A stretch of 64,000 nucleotides of DNA from Guptibacillus hwajinpoensis (lineage in GTDB: Bacteria; Bacillota; Bacilli; Bacillales; Guptibacillaceae): the NCBI RefSeq assembly GCF_001039475.1, contig NZ_LELK01000004.1, positions 93,827 to 157,826 on the forward strand. Reading direction: 5' to 3'. Of this stretch, positions 12,516 through 39,921 are shown one piece after another (positions within the stretch are counted from its first letter, which is position 1; every line of letters begins with the position of its first letter). The position numbers and the translations under genes are program-made. Under the pieces are notes generated by a model. It searched no databases, was not told the origin of the DNA, and worked only from the letters and a program-made list of their open reading frames with translations.

Positions 12516-12739
12516 GCTTTATTCAAAAGATATGCTGTTTTAAAAGTGGTAGCTGATTTTCGCTCCAGGATCCTCGCTTTCCGCGGGGCGGGCGGTGAGC
12601 CTCCTCGGCGCGTAAGGCGCGCCTGTGGGGTCTAACCTGTCCCGCTAATCCTGCAGGAGTCGAGCATCCTTTCGCTCCAATCAGCTAAGTGTTTCTTTTA
12701 ATACATCTATTAAAAACAACAAACTTTTAGAAAAAAGCC
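12516..12739. repeat. GC-rich repeat family 1, full-length copy B
   Basis: About 224 bp. The core TTTCCGCGGGGCGGGCGG and ACCTGTCCCGCTAATCC match copies A and C. A variable inner hairpin here is GGCGCG/CGCGCC. The right arm is AACTTTTAGAAAAAAGCC. AAATAAAAAAGCT at 12506-12518 and AAATAAATAAAGCT at 12740-12753 flank it as near direct repeats. It sits between the qoxD stop and the terminator. Confidence 0.8.
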
Positions 12740-25158: not shown

Positions 25159-25390
25159 GGCTCTTTTCGTAGCCATTGTTGCTATAAAAGTAGTGGTAGA
25201 TTTCCGCTTCAGGATGCTCGCTTTCCGCGGGGCGGGCGCTGAGCCCCCTCGGCGCATAAAAACATTGCGCCTGTGGGTCTCGCCTGTCCCGCTCATCCCG
25301 CAGTAGTCGAGCATCCTTCCGCTCCAATCAGCTAAGTGTTTCCTTTTTACAAAAAACCTTTTAAAAGCAACAATCTCTTAGGAAAGAGCC
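25159..25390. repeat. GC-rich repeat family 1, full-length copy C
   Basis: About 232 bp. Left arm GGCTCTTTTCGTAGCCATTG, right arm CAACAATCTCTTAGGAAAGA followed by GCC. The core matches A and B. The variable inner hairpin is GGCGCA/TGCGCC, a different sequence that still pairs. GGATGCTCG and CGAGCATCC pair at the base of the core. Inserted immediately after a terminator. Confidence 0.8.
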
Positions 25391-30952: not shown

Positions 30953-31116
30953 GGCTCTTTTCTAAAAGGTTGTTGCTTTTGAAAGAATTTCTTATATAAA
31001 AAGCCACACTTCGCTAATTGTAGTGGAAGGAGGCTCACCGCCCGCCCCGCGGAAAGCGAGCATCCTGGAACGGAAATTAACCCACGCTTATAGCAACAAT
31101 GTATACGAAAAGAGCC
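30953..31116. repeat. GC-rich repeat family 1, half-core copy E (reverse)
   Basis: About 164 bp with both terminal arms: GGCTCTTTTCTAAAAGGTTG on the left and CAATGTATACGAAAAGAGCC on the right. It keeps only the GGAGGCTCACCGCCCGCCCC / GCGGAAAGCGAGCATCC half of the core. TTACTT lies on both sides of the element (within TTCTTACTT and TTTTACTT), a possible short target duplication. Confidence 0.8.
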
Positions 31117-31248
31117 TTTTACTTACATTATTTTTCTGTGAGATACTTTCTGAAGCTATTACTTTGACATCTTTTAATTTCTGCTGTACCTTAATTCCTA
31201 GTTATTATATATGAATTATCTAGATTTGATGTATGAGGAGGTTAACCA

Positions 31249-32742: not shown

Positions 32743-32866
32743 AATATAAAAGCTGGAATCCTAGCACTTATTTCTGTAAATTACCTTATTACACTTTAAA
32801 TAATCGAAATTTTGTAATAATATTAACTTTAAAGCTTTTATGTACAAAAGGAAATGGGGGATTTGG

Positions 32867-33679
32867 GTGGCGGATCAAATAAAGGGGATATGGAAAGATT
32901 GGCGTTTGCATGTGCTTGTTTTTGCTATTGTTGCGTTAACAGAATGGATTGGGGTGTTTTCGTTTACTGTAGGGCCTGGTGTAGTTCTTCTGTTGCCGAT
33001 GTTGTATGCGATGTTAATTGGACTCGGTTTATTTTTTACACCAGCTGTAAAGAAAATGCAGGCACTCAATGCTGAGCCGTTAATTGTTCTTGGTGTAACG
33101 CTATTAATTGCGAAGATCGGGGTGATTATAGGACCATCTTTACCAAAGCTAATTGAAGCGGGTCCTGCCTTACTGCTTCAGGAGTTTGGCAATCTAGGAA
33201 CGATTTTTATTGCGCTGCCAATCGCGGTTATGCTCGGTTTAAAAAGAGAGAGTATCGGGATGACGCACTCTGTTGCAAGGGAGCCGAACGTTGGATTAAT
33301 TGTTGATAAATACGGATTCAATTCACCTGAAGGAAGAGGCGTTATGGCGATTTATATTTTTGGAACAGTGTTTGGGGCTGTTTTCATGGGAGTTATTTCA
33401 GGGTTCCTTGCGACCATAACCCCAATTCATCCACTGTCTTTCGCAATGGCATCAGGCATTGGGAGTGGAAGCATGATGGCTGCTGCTAGTGGCTCACTCG
33501 TTGCTGCTTTTCCAGCGTTTTCTGATGACATTATTGCTTTCGCAGGAGCGAGTAATTTGCTATCGCTCTCAACGGGTCTTTATATGAGCATTCTTATTGG
33601 TCTACCGCTTACGGAGAAAATGTATGCAGTACTTACTAGAAAAAAACAGAGTAATGCAGAGATTGGGAAGGGGGCGTAA
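32867..33679 (+). CDS. DUF3100 membrane protein, putative transporter subunit, 270 aa
   Basis: Polytopic membrane protein (8-9 TM) that I assign to the DUF3100 family. Features include VGPGVVLLLPMLYAMLIG, HSVAREPNVGLIVDKYG and MASGIGSGSMMAAASGSL, a small-residue-rich motif like those of transporters with internal repeats. The GTG at 32867 has GGGGG 6 nt upstream and is a better start than the ATG at 32840, which has no RBS. It ends 2 bp before the next membrane gene, so the two probably form one complex. Substrate unknown. Confidence 0.75.
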   Translation: MADQIKGIWKDWRLHVLVFAIVALTEWIGVFSFTVGPGVVLLLPMLYAMLIGLGLFFTPAVKKMQALNAEPLIVLGVTLLIAKIGVIIGPSLPKLIEAGPALLLQEFGNLGTIFIALPIAVMLGLKRESIGMTHSVAREPNVGLIVDKYGFNSPEGRGVMAIYIFGTVFGAVFMGVISGFLATITPIHPLSFAMASGIGSGSMMAAASGSLVAAFPAFSDDIIAFAGASNLLSLSTGLYMSILIGLPLTEKMYAVLTRKKQSNAEIGKGA

Positions 33680-33681
33680 GG

Positions 33682-34137
33682 ATGTTATTAAAAAACATAC
33701 AAGAGTGGTCGCTGTTGTTGCTCATTTTCGGAGTCATAGCCTCGTTTGGAAATTGGATCGGATACAGTATTGTTCCACTTTCCGCAATACCAGGAATGAT
33801 TGTATTAATCCTTATTTGCCTTGCTGGACTCATTTTGCAGCACGTTCTACCTGTTAATATACCTAGCGTTGCTTACATAGGAATCATTGGTATTCTCGTA
33901 TCGATGCCTGTTATGCCGGGTTCAGAGTTTGTAGTGAAATGGACGCAGGATATTAACATCCTTGCTCTTGCGACACCAATCCTCGCATATGCTGGAATTG
34001 CGATTGGACGATCATGGACGGATTTTGTAAAGCTAGGTTGGCGAAGCATTGTTGTCGCGATGTTTGTGATGGTTGGTACGTTTCTTGGATCCGCGCTCAT
34101 CGCTGAATTGGTGTTACGTATGCAAGGATTGATTTAA
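33682..34137 (+). CDS. Partner membrane protein of the DUF3100 gene, 151 aa
   Basis: Four or five TM helices. The segment SAIPGMIVLILICLAGLILQ and the terminal helix are typical of a small transporter subunit. It is separated from the upstream gene by 2 bp and has RBS AAGGGGGCGTAAGG inside that gene. An organic-anion or amino-acid exporter resembling the DUF340/LysO group is a guess from size and layout only. Confidence 0.65.
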   Translation: MLLKNIQEWSLLLLIFGVIASFGNWIGYSIVPLSAIPGMIVLILICLAGLILQHVLPVNIPSVAYIGIIGILVSMPVMPGSEFVVKWTQDINILALATPILAYAGIAIGRSWTDFVKLGWRSIVVAMFVMVGTFLGSALIAELVLRMQGLI

Positions 34138-35270: not shown

Positions 35271-35344
35271 GAGTAAACACCCCCACTCTTCTTTCTATAT
35301 ATCTATGATACTCATAGTTAGAAAGAAGAGCGGAGTTCATGGTT

Positions 35345-37138
35345 TCAAGCATAGCTCGTTATTTTTAGCGGTTCTACGCGAACGAGTGGAATGACTGCTT
35401 GTATGCCGTTTAGTTTCGCTTCATAGGTGGTGATTGGATAAGGTTCGATCAGCTGTGCAAGCTGTGGTCTTGCTAGCATTTCAGCGGGAAGGATAACATC
35501 GCTCCCTTTGCTTTCCTGCTCAATCCGAGCTGCTAAATTAACAGTATGACCGAAGTAATCGAGCTGGTTATTAGCTGTTACGGCGATCGCGGGGCCATTA
35601 TACATTCCCAGTTTAATGATCAAGTTCGTTTGGTTTGATTGATTAAATGACTCAACGGATTGTTGAATAGAGAGAGCAGCTTTCAATGCATCTTCAGGTG
35701 CATAGAAACAAGCCATCACTGAGTCGCCGATTGTTTTAATAATGCTTCCATTATGACGCGTAATCCATTTTGAAAGAAATTCAAAGTGATCATTTACCTG
35801 GCGATAGGCGTTGGCGTCTCCGGCTACTTCATAGAGGGAAGTTGAGCCGCGCAGGTCACTAAACAAAATCGTAACGTTCTCTATGCCAATTTCCTGCCCT
35901 TTTGCTAGTACTTCAGAGGAGAATAGGCGACGAAACGGTTCCATCGTTGTAACTTTAGCAGCTGTAACGGCATAATGATCGCGCTTCACTTCTTCGATAA
36001 CAAGAACAATGTCATTCTCACTTTCATTATGAAAAGTCGCATTGTGAAGAGAGAAAGTTTCACCCATTAATCCATTCTCGCCGTATGTAATCTCATGACT
36101 TGCACGTTGATTGATCTTTGCTGAATGGTTGCTTGATAGTATCCGTAGCTGAAGCTGTTCATTCATAGGTAAAGAAGGTATGTGCATGGTAGATCCTGCG
36201 GCTATTCTTTTCTGGATAAGGATGTGTGGTGTAAGGATTGGTCCACCGATGCAGTAGGTTTGGTCTACCGCCTTTCGAATAGAAGGGTGTACTGTAAAGC
36301 GAAGCTCAATTGATTGGTCGAACGTCATTTGGTATGAGATACCACATAAATCACAGTGGATCTCGTTCTTAACTTGAGAAAGTGATGACTCTTTCTCTTT
36401 TGCGACACGACAGTTCGGGCACATGAGAGACCATGTAAGATTTAGCACCCCAGCTTTCGTTGCTTCAAGAAAAAGGTGAAGAACGTCTTCACGATCCTCC
36501 TGCCATTGATCTGCGAGCTTATAAGGTTGCATGCTCAAAACCGTGTGATCTGCTCCTTGAATTAAGTGTTCTTTTAAACAATCCCTAAGCGTTGACGTTG
36601 GAAGCTTATCTAGTAGGTTATCTAGTGTTTGCTTGTTTGCAGTAGAGCGCATGGCTGGTTGTGGTAGCGTCACAATTCGAGAAGGGTGTAGATTGATGAA
36701 CTTTTCAATGTAAGAAAGTGTTTTCTTCATTGCAGGTAGCGCAATGACTGGAAGTGCAAGCTTTCCAAGCGCGTTCGCAGGGCGAAAAACAGAGAATACA
36801 TGAACTTCCGTTGCTGGATTTCCTGGAGAAGATACATCCTTTAATTCAATTCCTCCATTAAATTCAGCTAGTGGTCCAGAAGTGTAAACTCTTTGCACAA
36901 CATAACGTTCTTCTTTCACCCATTCAAAAGGGTATTCTTTCCATGATAAAGGAACTACGCCCGCTGCTTTTGCTTTCGCATGACGATAGAAGAGTCGATC
37001 ATCAAACAAGGCTTTGGTGAATTCGACAGGAAAGAGACCAATCATTCGATTCAAGTGATCGTTGTTGGCGAGCAAGCTCCAAATTGTTTCTTTTGGCAAA
37101 GGGAAGGTTTTGATAAGGGAGAAATGCTTTTCTTTCAT
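35345..37138 (-). CDS. Class III adenylate/guanylate cyclase with START-like and zinc-ribbon regions, 597 aa
   Basis: Predicted to make cAMP or cGMP. Residues 1-155 look like a START/SRPBCC ligand-binding fold. Residues 160-400 contain a DUF5939-like region with a zinc ribbon (Cys240, Cys243, Cys262, Cys265). Residues 420-590 are a class III cyclase domain. The metal Asp residues are Asp428 (LFSDLRGST) and Asp472 (KTIGDSVMA). Lys468 and Asp527 (LDYFG) are the pair expected for adenine recognition. Asn534 and Arg538 (VNLAARIE) are the transition-state residues. All catalytic positions appear intact. No TM helix is seen. It forms an operon with the DUF3307 gene 3 bp upstream. Confidence 0.87.
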   Translation of the reverse strand: MKEKHFSLIKTFPLPKETIWSLLANNDHLNRMIGLFPVEFTKALFDDRLFYRHAKAKAAGVVPLSWKEYPFEWVKEERYVVQRVYTSGPLAEFNGGIELKDVSSPGNPATEVHVFSVFRPANALGKLALPVIALPAMKKTLSYIEKFINLHPSRIVTLPQPAMRSTANKQTLDNLLDKLPTSTLRDCLKEHLIQGADHTVLSMQPYKLADQWQEDREDVLHLFLEATKAGVLNLTWSLMCPNCRVAKEKESSLSQVKNEIHCDLCGISYQMTFDQSIELRFTVHPSIRKAVDQTYCIGGPILTPHILIQKRIAAGSTMHIPSLPMNEQLQLRILSSNHSAKINQRASHEITYGENGLMGETFSLHNATFHNESENDIVLVIEEVKRDHYAVTAAKVTTMEPFRRLFSSEVLAKGQEIGIENVTILFSDLRGSTSLYEVAGDANAYRQVNDHFEFLSKWITRHNGSIIKTIGDSVMACFYAPEDALKAALSIQQSVESFNQSNQTNLIIKLGMYNGPAIAVTANNQLDYFGHTVNLAARIEQESKGSDVILPAEMLARPQLAQLIEPYPITTYEAKLNGIQAVIPLVRVEPLKITSYA

Positions 37139-37141
37139 ACG

Positions 37142-37507
37142 TCAACCTCCGATAAATGAAAATGAGAAAGATAGAATAATAGCGATGACAAGTAAGTGAA
37201 AGATTTGATCGACGATGATGGTCAGCCAGCGTGAACTAGGATCGGAATTTTGCATGATCACAGTAGTCCACCAAACAACAAATGTGCGTCGATCAAGGAA
37301 TAGATGTGTGATGAACACGAAGCCAAGCTGTAGGATTGAAAGTCCTCCAAACGCAAGCCAGGCAGTGAGACCAATTACGAAAGTGTAGATGCTCACATGG
37401 ACGAATAGCGGTAGCCATTGATTATGCTTATGTAAGGCCATCCATTTTGTCTGGAAAAGGTAATCACCTACAAGGTGTGCAATAAATAAGTATTCAAATG
37501 GTGTCAT
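37142..37507 (-). CDS. DUF3307 membrane protein, 121 aa
   Basis: Small membrane protein with three or four TM helices. FIAHLVGDYLFQTKWMALHK and the HLFLDRRTF segment fit DUF3307. His/Asp pairs in TM helices (HLVGD, HLFLD) suggest a buried metal or catalytic site. It is the first gene of the operon with the cyclase. It may couple membrane state or a ligand to the cyclase, but this is inference only. RBS on the minus strand is AAGGAAGG. Confidence 0.75.
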   Translation of the reverse strand: MTPFEYLFIAHLVGDYLFQTKWMALHKHNQWLPLFVHVSIYTFVIGLTAWLAFGGLSILQLGFVFITHLFLDRRTFVVWWTTVIMQNSDPSSRWLTIIVDQIFHLLVIAIILSFSFSFIGG

Positions 37508-37655
37508 TTTTTGCCTTCCTTTACCTATGAGAGAGGATCATAAGCGTGTATGATAGAAGTATTCATAAGCTTTTTTAATTAGTTTATCACTACATCATTT
37601 TGTATGCTTCGTTATTTTGGGAAGGAAGTACTTTGAGGGGAGGCCTAACAGACTA

Positions 37656-38780
37656 ATGTCTAACGGCCGTTATAAAAAGAAGCTTGAATCGGATGAGCTT
37701 TTGGAAATCATTTTTGACTATGCCGCCAAAATTACAATAGAACATAATCTGGATAACCTATTATTGCTAATGGCTGATATGGGGCGTGAGATGACGGTCG
37801 CTGATCGGTGCACACTGTGGCTCTATGATGAGCGAGCGGATGAACTATGGGCAAAAGTCGCTCATGGTATGGACGAAGTACGTGTCCCTTCAAATGCAGG
37901 GCTTGCGGGCTATGTGTTTCAAACGACAAAATCTCTTGTGATTGAGGATGCCTATCAAGACGAACGATTCCATTCAGATGTTGATGTGCAAACAGGTTAT
38001 CGAACGAAGTCAGTTATGGTTATTCCCTTAATCAATAAGCAGAACGTAACTCTTGGTGTTTATCAGGTAATTAATAAGTTAACGGAAGAAGAAGTGTTTA
38101 CAACCAAGGATGTAAAGTATTTAAGCCTTGCTGCATCTTATACAGCACAAGCTCTTGAAGCTGTTCTCATGAACATTGAGGTGGAAGAAGCTCAGAAAGA
38201 AATTATTTTTAAGATGGGCGAAATTGGCGAAGTGCGCTCGAAGGAGACGGGCCATCATGTGAAACGTGTAGCGGAATATGCCAAGTTTCTAGCGATTAAA
38301 GCCGGATTAAGTGAGGAAGAAGCAGAACTCATTAAAGTAGCTTCGCCAATGCATGACATTGGAAAAGTGGCGATTCCTGACTCCATCTTAAATAAGCCAG
38401 GCAGGTTATCGAAAGAAGAGTATACCGCTATACAAGCTCATTCGACGATCGGTTATGATTTACTGAAGAACTCGAATCGGAGCATTTTGCATGCGGCAGC
38501 TGTCATTGCGAAACAGCATCATGAGCGATGGGATGGACGCGGGTATCCAGATGGACTGAGTGGTGAAAACATTCACCTATACGGACGAATTGTCTCTGTT
38601 GCAGACGTATTTGATGCTCTAGCATCAGATCGTCCCTACAAAAAAGCATGGAGCATTGGAAGAATTGTCACTCACTTTACGAAGGAAAAAGGAAAGCAGT
38701 TCGATCCAGATTTAATCGATCTCTTTCTTAACCATCTTGACGATTTCCTCTCCATTAAAGAACAATACGATGAAATCTAA
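37656..38780 (+). CDS. GAF-HD-GYP protein, predicted c-di-GMP phosphodiesterase, 374 aa
   Basis: Cytoplasmic. Residues 20-170 are a GAF domain. It carries an NK-X6-F-X3-D signature (Asn140, Lys141, Phe148, Asp152), close to the NKFDE motif of cyclic-nucleotide GAFs, with Val in place of the Glu. Residues 185-370 are an HD-GYP domain: HDIGK (His233-Asp234), KQHHERWDGRGYPDG with the GYP triad at 296-298, and ADVFDALASDRPY. The predicted reaction is hydrolysis of c-di-GMP. It is divergent from the cyclase operon across about 150 bp. ATG 37656 is chosen; GGGGAGG is 12 nt upstream. A TTG at 37617 has no RBS. Confidence 0.88.
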   Translation: MSNGRYKKKLESDELLEIIFDYAAKITIEHNLDNLLLLMADMGREMTVADRCTLWLYDERADELWAKVAHGMDEVRVPSNAGLAGYVFQTTKSLVIEDAYQDERFHSDVDVQTGYRTKSVMVIPLINKQNVTLGVYQVINKLTEEEVFTTKDVKYLSLAASYTAQALEAVLMNIEVEEAQKEIIFKMGEIGEVRSKETGHHVKRVAEYAKFLAIKAGLSEEEAELIKVASPMHDIGKVAIPDSILNKPGRLSKEEYTAIQAHSTIGYDLLKNSNRSILHAAAVIAKQHHERWDGRGYPDGLSGENIHLYGRIVSVADVFDALASDRPYKKAWSIGRIVTHFTKEKGKQFDPDLIDLFLNHLDDFLSIKEQYDEI

Positions 38781-38817: not shown

Positions 38818-38977
38818 GGCTCTATTCTAAAAGATTGTTGTTTTTGAAACAATTATTTAAAAAAACCACACTTAGTGATTGGAGCGGAAGGAGGCTCACC
38901 GCCCGCCTCGCGGAAAGCGAGCATCCTGGAGCGGAAATTAACCCACTCATATAGCAACAATGTATACGAAAAGAGCC
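38818..38977. repeat. GC-rich repeat family 1, half-core copy F (reverse)
   Basis: About 160 bp. Arms are GGCTCTATTCTAAAAGATTG and CAATGTATACGAAAAGAGCC. It has the same core deletion as copy E. TAGAT lies on both sides (38813-38817 left, 38981-38985 right), and the right copy overlaps the stop codon of the ATP-grasp gene. Confidence 0.8.
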
Positions 38978-38979
38978 TT

Positions 38980-39921
38980 TTAGATAAACGAATGAAGCTC
39001 GGAAAGTTCTCGCTCAAGTGTCTCCGCGATAGCTTTCATACCAGAAATGCCTCCTTTCTGTTCTGCATCAGCATTGTAATTCGTATTTGTGTTCACATCA
39101 TATGTGAAGAGCTCTCCACGTTCATTCTGAATGCACTCGATGCCTGCAAACGCAATGCCGTTCGCTTTTAAGAAAGCTTCATAATTTGCGAGCACAGGGT
39201 GATCAAAGTCTTCAATGATTTCGAATTTCGGTCTAGGTTGTTCCGTCGTCGGACAGAATGAATCGCCCACCTGACAAGCATCCGCTGGACACAACTCAAA
39301 ACCGTCAGACGTATCAACACGGACTGCATAGAGAAATTTACCGCCAACGAATTCACAGCGCGTAATAGATGAGTCGGGTGATTGAATGTATTGCTGAAGC
39401 AGCGTGATGCCATCGATTGACTCATCGAACGCTTCGCTTGCAACATATGATTTAAGAGATTCAGGCTGTTGGAAAAGCTGAACACCGAGTCCTTTTCCTG
39501 CGCGGTTGTGTTTTGTAATAAACGGCTCACTAAACGAATCTGCTGCTTTCGAAAGATGATCTTTACCTACTGCTGCAATCGTTTTCGGCGTGACAATACC
39601 ATGCTGTCTAAGCGCATTATATTGAGCTACTTTGCTTACTTCGAGCGCTAGCGCACGGCTATCGTTCAGTACTCTACGTCCATGACTTTCAAGCCATGAA
39701 AGGACGGCAGCTGTGTATTCTGGGGCATAGCGATGTCCTCTCGTATGAGAAGAAGCGCTCATGCGATTATAGTAGATTCCTTCTGGTGGAACGTCTGATA
39801 AATCGATGCTACCTTCGCTTAAAAACCAATCCTCGTATGGAACATTAAGTGTTTCTAGCTCATGCTTAAGTGGCTTTGTCCACTCATCATTTTCGTGGAT
39901 AATGTATACTTTTGCACTCAT
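38980..39921 (-). CDS. ATP-grasp ligase, RimK/glutathione-synthase-like, 313 aa
   Basis: ATP-dependent carboxylate-amine ligase. ATP-grasp features are PFITKHNRAGKGLGVQLF (ATP-binding loop), LLQQYIQSPDSSITRCEFVGG and TYDVNTNTNYN (Mg-binding Glu/Asp-Asn region). The N-terminal part YIIHENDEWTKPL is a preATP-grasp domain. A small Cys pair lies in LCPADACQVGDSFC. The substrate is unknown; peptide or amino-acid ligation is likely. The start at 39921 is fixed by AAGGAGG 8 nt upstream. Its stop codon touches repeat copy F. Confidence 0.83.
   Translation of the reverse strand: MSAKVYIIHENDEWTKPLKHELETLNVPYEDWFLSEGSIDLSDVPPEGIYYNRMSASSHTRGHRYAPEYTAAVLSWLESHGRRVLNDSRALALEVSKVAQYNALRQHGIVTPKTIAAVGKDHLSKAADSFSEPFITKHNRAGKGLGVQLFQQPESLKSYVASEAFDESIDGITLLQQYIQSPDSSITRCEFVGGKFLYAVRVDTSDGFELCPADACQVGDSFCPTTEQPRPKFEIIEDFDHPVLANYEAFLKANGIAFAGIECIQNERGELFTYDVNTNTNYNADAEQKGGISGMKAIAETLERELSELHSFI

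Follow-up and report, generated by a model that had tools for sequence, protein, structure and literature searches.

The DNA studied here is a 64-kb stretch of the Guptibacillus hwajinpoensis genome, called the window below, in which the gene of a class III nucleotide cyclase follows that of a short DUF3307 membrane protein and both diverge from the gene of a GAF-HD-GYP protein. These genes probably form a dedicated link between two second messengers: the cyclase product, which its sequence suggests to be cyclic adenosine monophosphate (cAMP), would bind the GAF domain of the neighbouring protein and tune the hydrolysis of cyclic dimeric guanosine monophosphate (c-di-GMP) by its HD-GYP domain. 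The analysis was computational throughout, using open reading frames (ORFs), Pfam, sequence comparison and AlphaFold models, and the gene content, linkage, partner swaps, catalytic residues and GAF family could be read directly. An earlier note on this DNA had proposed that the cyclase product binds the GAF domain and tunes c-di-GMP turnover. At the genomic level the coupling is well supported by linkage, swaps, co-occurrence and a pocket residue, while the argument that the note had drawn from an NKFDE motif turned out to be weak.

Conserved Linkage of the Cyclase and GAF-HD-GYP Genes

A contig scan gave 84 relatives of the window cyclase, from which 80 loci were kept: 52 belong to named Bacillales other than Paenibacillaceae, and the remaining 28 come from Paenibacillaceae (8), from other phyla (17) and from three vaguely titled metagenome-assembled genomes (MAGs; L093, L115, L135). 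The neighbourhood covered was at most 6 kb on either side of the cyclase. A GAF-HD-GYP gene was found within two genes of the cyclase in 52/52 Bacillales loci and in 0/28 of the others, a group that was drawn up after the neighbours had been seen and then compared with the record titles; if the three vague MAGs were Bacillales, linkage would be 52/55. Among these 28, the ORF step gave no intact cyclase in L097 and L145, several loci are short, and L106 carries an HD-GYP without GAF; no GAF-HD-GYP was found among 20 neighbour proteins scanned from 14 of the 28 loci. Linkage was also seen in 20/20 order-sample genomes with a full-length cyclase, a set that shares genomes with the contig loci (L124 and L127 are, in addition, one MAG). 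Conserved adjacency was the test set by the earlier note, and the proposal withstood it.

DUF3307 was found in 46/52 Bacillales loci and 0/28 others by a six-frame count. Its place in the cyclase operon had been pointed out before and stands, but it had been treated as an extra, whereas it is the third recurring component. With greedy ORF calls, the gene orders (H, HD-GYP; D, DUF3307; C, cyclase) were <D>H>C in 22 loci, >H>D>C in 18, >H>C in 11 and <H>D>C, the order of the window, in 1; greedy calling hid the DUF3307 gene in some of the 11 >H>C loci. Where HD-GYP directly precedes the cyclase (32 loci), the gap between the longest ORFs is −68 to +26 bp, and one operon is therefore likely there.

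Cyclases with the START-DUF5939 architecture of the window protein occur in 2/15 family-sample genomes and 22/397 order-sample genomes (two of them fragments), and any PF00211 match in 33/397 of the latter, in agreement with the earlier remark that class III cyclases are uncommon. Broken module cyclases were seen in G244 (L056), where the match covers about the first 200 residues only, beside HD-GYP and DUF3307, and in G324 (L057), with fragments only. In five Paenibacillus loci (L074, L083, L085, L092, L096), the cyclase is followed by genes of about 270–300 and 223–224 amino acids (aa); in L074, the only locus of the five to be scanned, they encode a histidine kinase (HisKA_3) and a response regulator of LuxR type, possibly another output of the cyclase family.

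Partner Swaps and Co-Occurrence

The HD-GYP tree contains two GAF-HD-GYP lineages, each with 100/100 support, joined by very long branches, and both are partners of START-DUF5939 cyclases. The window protein belongs to lineage I, with the E-T-G motif. In lineage II, made up of Planococcus kin and a few Bacillus, the Glu of E-T-G is lost in 20/20 rows (Tyr in the four rows displayed), and by sequence this lineage fits the binuclear HD-GYP subgroup predicted in the accessible text of PMC4159591.

The cyclase partner is exchanged as well. Outside the own genus, eight lineage I genomes have no START-DUF5939 cyclase, and 8/8 have another class III cyclase, of CHASE2 type (by Pfam in 4/4 scanned and by alignment in the remaining four). 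This CHASE2 cyclase is the next gene downstream of HD-GYP in G061 (gap of 90 bp) and G321 (6 bp) and lies about 7 to 48 kb away in the others; going by family codes, the set spans six families. What is constant across the swaps is the class III catalytic domain and the GAF-HD-GYP protein.

Among 397 genomes, full-length lineage I proteins were found in 24/33 with PF00211 and 11/364 without (Fisher 7e-23), and with the own genus excluded in 22/31 and 1/352, respectively (Fisher 1e-27), relatedness being uncorrected in both tests. The single genome of the 1/352 is G244, with its truncated cyclase, and in four more of the 33 PF00211 genomes (G017, G063, G100, G131) the cyclase has a lineage II gene as its neighbour. 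No PF00211 match other than the module cyclase was found in 18/20 genomes with a full-length cyclase, nor in the own genome of the window. Since GGDEF genes were present in 33/33 genomes tested, c-di-GMP is probably made. The CRP-type domain PF00027 had no match in 4/20 cyclase genomes, namely G222, G172, G091 (at least 99% complete) and G131 (83%). Judged by Pfam, a CRP-type receptor is thus unlikely in these four, and the adjacent GAF domain is the leading receptor candidate there.

Sequence and Model of the Cyclase

The cyclase matches PF00211 (E 5e-20, 72.2 bits against a cut-off of 21.9) and PF19363, or DUF5939 (E 3e-19). It consists of a START/SRPBCC-like domain (about residues 1–150), a helical DUF5939 part with a zinc ribbon (170–290), a beta domain up to about residue 385 and the catalytic domain (419–553). 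D428, K468, D472, D527, N534 and R538, described earlier as intact, are invariant in 42 aligned cyclases. We take D428 and D472 to be the metal residues, K468 and D527 the substrate residues, and N534 and R538 those of the transition state; the Lys/Asp substrate pair presumably confers ATP/cAMP specificity. The protein thereby shows the sequence marks of a class III adenylyl cyclase: PF00211 over its cut-off, the metal Asp pair, the Lys/Asp pair and Asn-x3-Arg. The zinc-ribbon cysteines C240, C243, C262 and C265 are invariant in 42/42 cyclases, too. For the START-like region and the ribbon, conservation is a sign of constraint only; that they might sense a lipid or a redox state, as suggested by the earlier note, is a conjecture.

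The AlphaFold model of the cyclase has a mean predicted local distance difference test (pLDDT) score of 91.9. Its N-terminal domain runs through one strand, two helices, six to seven strands and a long helix, which is the helix-grip order, and was named START/SRPBCC-like from this order of elements; in sequence, Polyketide_cyc2 was matched weakly, in 1/14 members (E 0.0019). The best Foldseek match of the cyclase was 5d0e_B, the adenylyl cyclase Ma1120 (E 7e-13). Catalytic domain and residues are common to the window protein and the class III adenylyl cyclases Ma1120, CyaB and CyaC, whereas the START-like and DUF5939/zinc-ribbon part gave no clear PDB relative by sequence search, with weak rubredoxin similarity of the zinc-ribbon region (two entries, E 0.08–0.1).

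GAF Domain and Candidate Ligand Pocket

Residues of the GAF-HD-GYP protein are numbered here from TTG 37617. Pfam places a GAF domain (E 6e-15) before the HD-GYP domain (HD_5, E 4e-33). When the window GAF was compared with PDB sequences, PmGH of Persephonella marina came first among 23 matches, and the next 19 were GAF domains of CyaB2, of phosphodiesterases (PDE2, 5, 6 and 10) or of Lcd1; three weak matches came last (3ci6, 4zmu and 2xss, the last again a cGMP phosphodiesterase). The Lcd1 GAF (5W10) matched the window GAF with E 3e-14 and a lineage II GAF with 1e-19, and in the single lineage II case searched (L038) the best three PDB matches were CyaB2, Lcd1 and PDE10A. The ligand of the CyaB2 and Lcd1 GAFs is cAMP according to the accessible parts of PMC4411481 and PMC8846402, respectively, and for PDE10A this is given by a cited title.

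The near-NKFDE motif pointed out by the earlier note, NK-X6-F-X3-D, is present (N153, K154, F161, D165), with V166 in place of the final E. Since 10/10 cyclase-less orthologues have the same four residues, the motif alone says little, and NKFDE was rejected as proof of cAMP binding.

In CyaB2 GAFb, cAMP is contacted by R291, T293, I308, D356 and N359, with T293 hydrogen-bonded to N6/N7 of cAMP, as described in the available text of PMC4411481. These align with R64, T66, V81, D123 and T126 of the window protein; R, T and D are kept, I308 is replaced by V and N359 by T. R64 and D123 are unchanged in 56/56 lineage I rows. Site 66 is T/S in 38/38 lineage I rows beside a START-DUF5939 cyclase (one, L056, beside a truncated copy), in 20/20 lineage II rows and in 8/8 rows from CHASE2-cyclase genomes, and it is I/M in 8/10 own-genus rows whose genomes have no PF00211; site 126 is outside T/S in five of these ten. 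Four pocket sites are among the 42 conserved GAF sites. Only three of the 42 differ in half or more of the cyclase-less rows, and two of these three belong to the pocket (hypergeometric P 0.02, the rows being related). These pocket changes after cyclase loss resemble release from ligand binding, which is suggestive only.

HD-GYP Domain

The window protein aligns with PmGH (4mcw) over residues 26–383 (E 3e-112), and residue numbers were mapped by hand as PmGH + 25. All eight metal ligands are kept (E210, H214, H246, D247, H275, H301, H302 and D330), E-T-G is present, and K250 and G309-Y310-P311 are further HD-GYP residues. With eight ligands and E-T-G the domain falls in the E/D-T-G subgroup, predicted to be trinuclear in PMC4159591, as far as its accessible text goes. 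PmGH is likewise a GAF-HD-GYP protein of this subgroup with eight metal ligands and E-T-G; the same text gives no ligand for its GAF domain.

DUF3307 Protein

PF11750 (E 1e-11) is the sole Pfam family seen in the DUF3307 protein. Its invariant residues are H11, D15, Q19, H37, H68, D72, D100 and H104. A structure search with the model (pLDDT 92.2) gave nothing similar in the PDB at E 0.001. At a guess, the protein could be a metal enzyme embedded in the membrane, or a transporter.

Short DUF3307 frames (115–155 aa) were counted in an 80-genome set made up of 28 of the 33 cyclase genomes, 13 cyclase-less genomes of the own family, G244 and 38 order genomes that have no cyclase and were picked by running number. 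They were found in 26/28 genomes with a class III cyclase and 2/52 without (G022 and G244, whose cyclase is broken), and four further cyclase-less genomes have long forms of 288–309 aa only. The family as a whole is wider (68/398 Bacillota genomes), mostly with longer frames. In the CHASE2 genomes, DUF3307 adjoins HD-GYP or is one gene away in 6/8; in the remaining two, both are on one contig, not more than about 10 kb apart. Since short DUF3307 also accompanies CHASE2 cyclases, the idea of a partner of the START-like domain only was rejected.

In four CHASE2 loci (L207, L208, L209, L210), an NHL-repeat protein of about 460–505 aa lies between or beside HD-GYP and DUF3307, and in 3/4 it carries a copper amine oxidase N-terminal domain.

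Proposed Pathway

In the proposed pathway, a stimulus would be sensed by the START-like and zinc-ribbon region of the cyclase, which would then form a cyclic mononucleotide, most likely cAMP judging from its catalytic residues. The cAMP would bind the PDE/CyaB2-type GAF domain of the neighbouring HD-GYP protein, and GAF occupancy would alter, probably raise, c-di-GMP hydrolysis by HD-GYP. The short DUF3307 membrane protein would be part of the same pathway. We infer here the cAMP product, its binding to the GAF domain, the direction of the effect and c-di-GMP as the HD-GYP substrate.

The general view is that cAMP is not used by Bacillus and related bacteria. With somewhat less than even confidence, we suggest that part of Bacillales has a cAMP pathway that works without CRP and has a c-di-GMP phosphodiesterase as its principal receptor, organized as a three-part module with interchangeable cyclase sensors and DUF3307 as a dedicated membrane component. 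If the coupling is true, cAMP has a function in Bacillales, sometimes in genomes without any CRP-type domain match, and its coupling to c-di-GMP can be tested on a set of two or three genes that is complete in itself. The module is also a functional lead for DUF3307 and DUF5939.

Cassette Absence, Opposing Evidence and Alternative Explanations

Several observations weigh against the coupling. Ten sister species have neither DUF3307 nor the cyclase at this place and retain HD-GYP with its flanking genes, and HD-GYP thus has a use without the cyclase. T66 is kept in 2/10 of these species. With the GAF domain of a cyclase-less genome (L058), the PDB search led to the same families, which means that the family of a GAF domain is not in itself a distinguishing mark. 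Most rows lack the E of NKFDE. In the pocket, the R64 site is Ala in lineage II, the site of CyaB2 N359 is T/S and not Asn, and the T293A change in CyaB2 lowered the affinity for cGMP, not for cAMP, according to the available text of PMC4411481. Cyclase losses are few and all in one genus, giving three independent tree pairs, with which no significance is possible. Distance ratios between GAF and HD by row group gave no overall difference indicating faster GAF evolution after cyclase loss (1.56 in cyclase-less own-genus rows, 1.54 in CHASE2 genomes, 1.61 in linked lineage I and 1.40 in lineage II); in the small-distance bins the cyclase-less genus rows were higher (2.12 vs 1.74 and 1.78 vs 1.20), and in the next bin lower (1.33 vs 1.60). 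Neither GAF-HD-GYP lineage was found in 5/33 PF00211 genomes (G045, G093, G217, G236, G324), of which G217 is 62% complete and G324 has cyclase fragments only. The own genome of the window has four PF00027 matches, which are possible alternative receptors. Lastly, the position of PmGH D183 is Ser208 in 56/56 lineage I rows, the window included, and Asp in 20/20 lineage II rows. PmGH activity was lost when D183 was changed; the accessible text of PMC4159591 does not name Asp183 as a subgroup mark. Because Ser replaces it throughout lineage I, the c-di-GMP hydrolysis step is to be taken with caution, cyclic GMP-AMP (cGAMP) being an alternative substrate.

The ten cyclase-less sister species have no PF00211 or DUF3307 match anywhere in the genome, and tblastn at E 1 gave no cyclase remnant and, for DUF3307, one chance-like match of 16 residues. 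In one of them, G003, the flanks of the cassette stand side by side, with about four bases common at the joint. Among the cyclases compared, the one most similar to the window protein is from G013 (63%). Since G013 lies at the genus base of the HD-GYP tree (89/76, not firm) and the window is nested inside the genus, the own-genus history agrees with vertical inheritance and two or more losses, gain being the alternative. G013 (L004) carries the whole module in another genomic context, and none of its other displayed genes is in a cluster shared with the window.

Instead of sharing a ligand, the cyclase and HD-GYP could share a regulon or stimulus and react side by side to one envelope signal, in which case the cyclase product would act on a different receptor, for example of CRP type. 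PF00027 matches in 16/20 cyclase genomes and the four in the own genome agree with this, as does the persistence of HD-GYP without the cyclase in ten species, and DUF3307 could be the common sensor. We nevertheless regard it as unlikely, given the 4/20 cyclase genomes with no PF00027 match, a GAF domain of cyclic-nucleotide type, a pocket site that differs in the majority of genus rows without a cyclase, and two sensor architectures, START-DUF5939 and CHASE2, that pair with one HD-GYP lineage. It is less probable still that the GAF domain has a different ligand (cGMP, guanosine diphosphate (GDP) or some further nucleotide) or serves just to keep the dimer together, with linkage reflecting selection for co-inheritance of signalling genes. 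GAF ligands do vary, GDP being listed for DcpA in the available text of PMC8846402, and all of the motif but its E is conserved in the cyclase-less rows. The Dcsbis GAF is reported to be PDE-like in fold and to bind neither cAMP nor cGMP, but its NKFDE is described as degenerate, whereas the present motif retains its first four residues; moreover, the co-occurrence with class III cyclases of any kind exceeds the base rate by far.

A Pycsar-like system, acting against phages through cyclic nucleotides and with DUF3307 as membrane effector, was considered as well. In its favour are the match of PycC models to the catalytic domain (E 3e-11), the nature of DUF3307 as a small protein of the membrane and the sporadic distribution of the cyclase (22/397). 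The PycC match is, however, limited to the common catalytic domain, DUF3307 has no PADLOC match and is seen by Pfam as DUF3307 only, HD-GYP matches generic HD models only (Cas3, best E 8e-6), and vertical inheritance with loss fits the own-genus tree. This makes the explanation highly improbable, and with no PADLOC effector match for either cyclase neighbour beyond generic HD matches, the locus was not assigned to Pycsar.

Relation to Known Systems

The proposed coupling resembles three described proteins. Tlr0485 likewise joins GAF to HD-GYP and is reported to be cAMP-responsive, a likeness by description; it is from another phylum, and the accessible text of PMC8846402 mentions no linked cyclase for it. 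Bd1971 of Bdellovibrio gates c-di-GMP hydrolysis by cAMP in one protein, using a CRP-type cyclic nucleoside monophosphate (cNMP) domain and EAL where the window has GAF and HD-GYP (PMC6717892, available text). Lcd1 of Leptospira is a cAMP-activated GAF-GGDEF protein, described in the same part of PMC8846402, with a GAF domain of the same type as that of the window. Lcd1 makes c-di-GMP, whereas the window HD-GYP is predicted to destroy it. We know of no linked cyclase for Lcd1. Since these three are described, the working principle of cAMP acting on c-di-GMP is not new.

Open-access literature searches gave nothing on DUF5939, nothing useful on DUF3307 (a phage genome mention only) and no Planococcus report with adenylate cyclase and c-di-GMP; among open-access titles and abstract openings, none linked such a cyclase to GAF-HD-GYP in Bacillales. 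In these searches, the dedicated module, the DUF3307 part and the use in Bacillales had no precedent.

Locus Layout and Other Features of the Window

The three genes of the earlier note were recovered in the ORF list, including the DUF3307 gene just upstream of the cyclase and in the same direction (Table 1). For the GAF-HD-GYP gene, ATG 37656 is a likelier start, judged from sequence, than the listed TTG 37617: it is preceded by gaggggagg, and the longest ORFs of ten sister orthologues encode 372–380 aa. With this start the divergent gap becomes 148 bp, close to the 150 bp given before.

Table 1. Features of the 64-kb window.
Feature	Position	Strand	Basis or remark
Class III nucleotide cyclase, 597 aa	35345-37138	-	ORF list, Pfam, AlphaFold
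Cyclase catalytic domain, residues 419-553	35480..35884	-	Pfam, 42-sequence alignment, Foldseek
Zinc ribbon, C240-x2-C243 ... C262-x2-C265	36344..36421	-	Cysteine conservation
N-terminal START/SRPBCC-like domain, residues 1-150	36689..37138	-	Element order in AlphaFold model
DUF3307 membrane protein, 121 aa	37142-37507	-	Pfam; 3 bp from cyclase start, same direction
GAF-HD-GYP protein, 374 aa from ATG	37656..38780	+	ORF list gives TTG 37617, 387 aa
GAF domain, residues 45-180	37749..38156	+	Pfam, PDB sequence matches
HD-GYP domain, residues 209-366	38241..38714	+	Pfam, PmGH alignment
DUF3307-cyclase cassette, missing in sister species G003	35341..37503	.	Flank comparison
Inverted repeat between cyclase end and start of co-directional next gene (DUF2515)	35286..35330	.	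By eye; kept in G003
Dispersed repeat GCGGAAAGCGAGCATCCTGGAGCGGAA, copies	1537-1563, 12558-12584, 25202-25228, 31049-31075, 38910-38936		Window scan

The inverted repeat behind the cyclase gene is, at a guess, a terminator. Elsewhere in the window, a gene for a DUF3100 protein (279 aa) adjoins one for a 151-aa protein without Pfam match (32840-34137); the pair is kept in the ten sister species and might, as a guess, be a two-gene transporter. A dispersed repeat with the core GCGGAAAGCGAGCATCCTGGAGCGGAA (0–2 mismatches) occurs in 5 copies in the 64 kb, with 0 expected in shuffles, and its intergenic copies at 31049 and 38910 create doubtful ORFs, such as 31023-31214 and 38875-39171.

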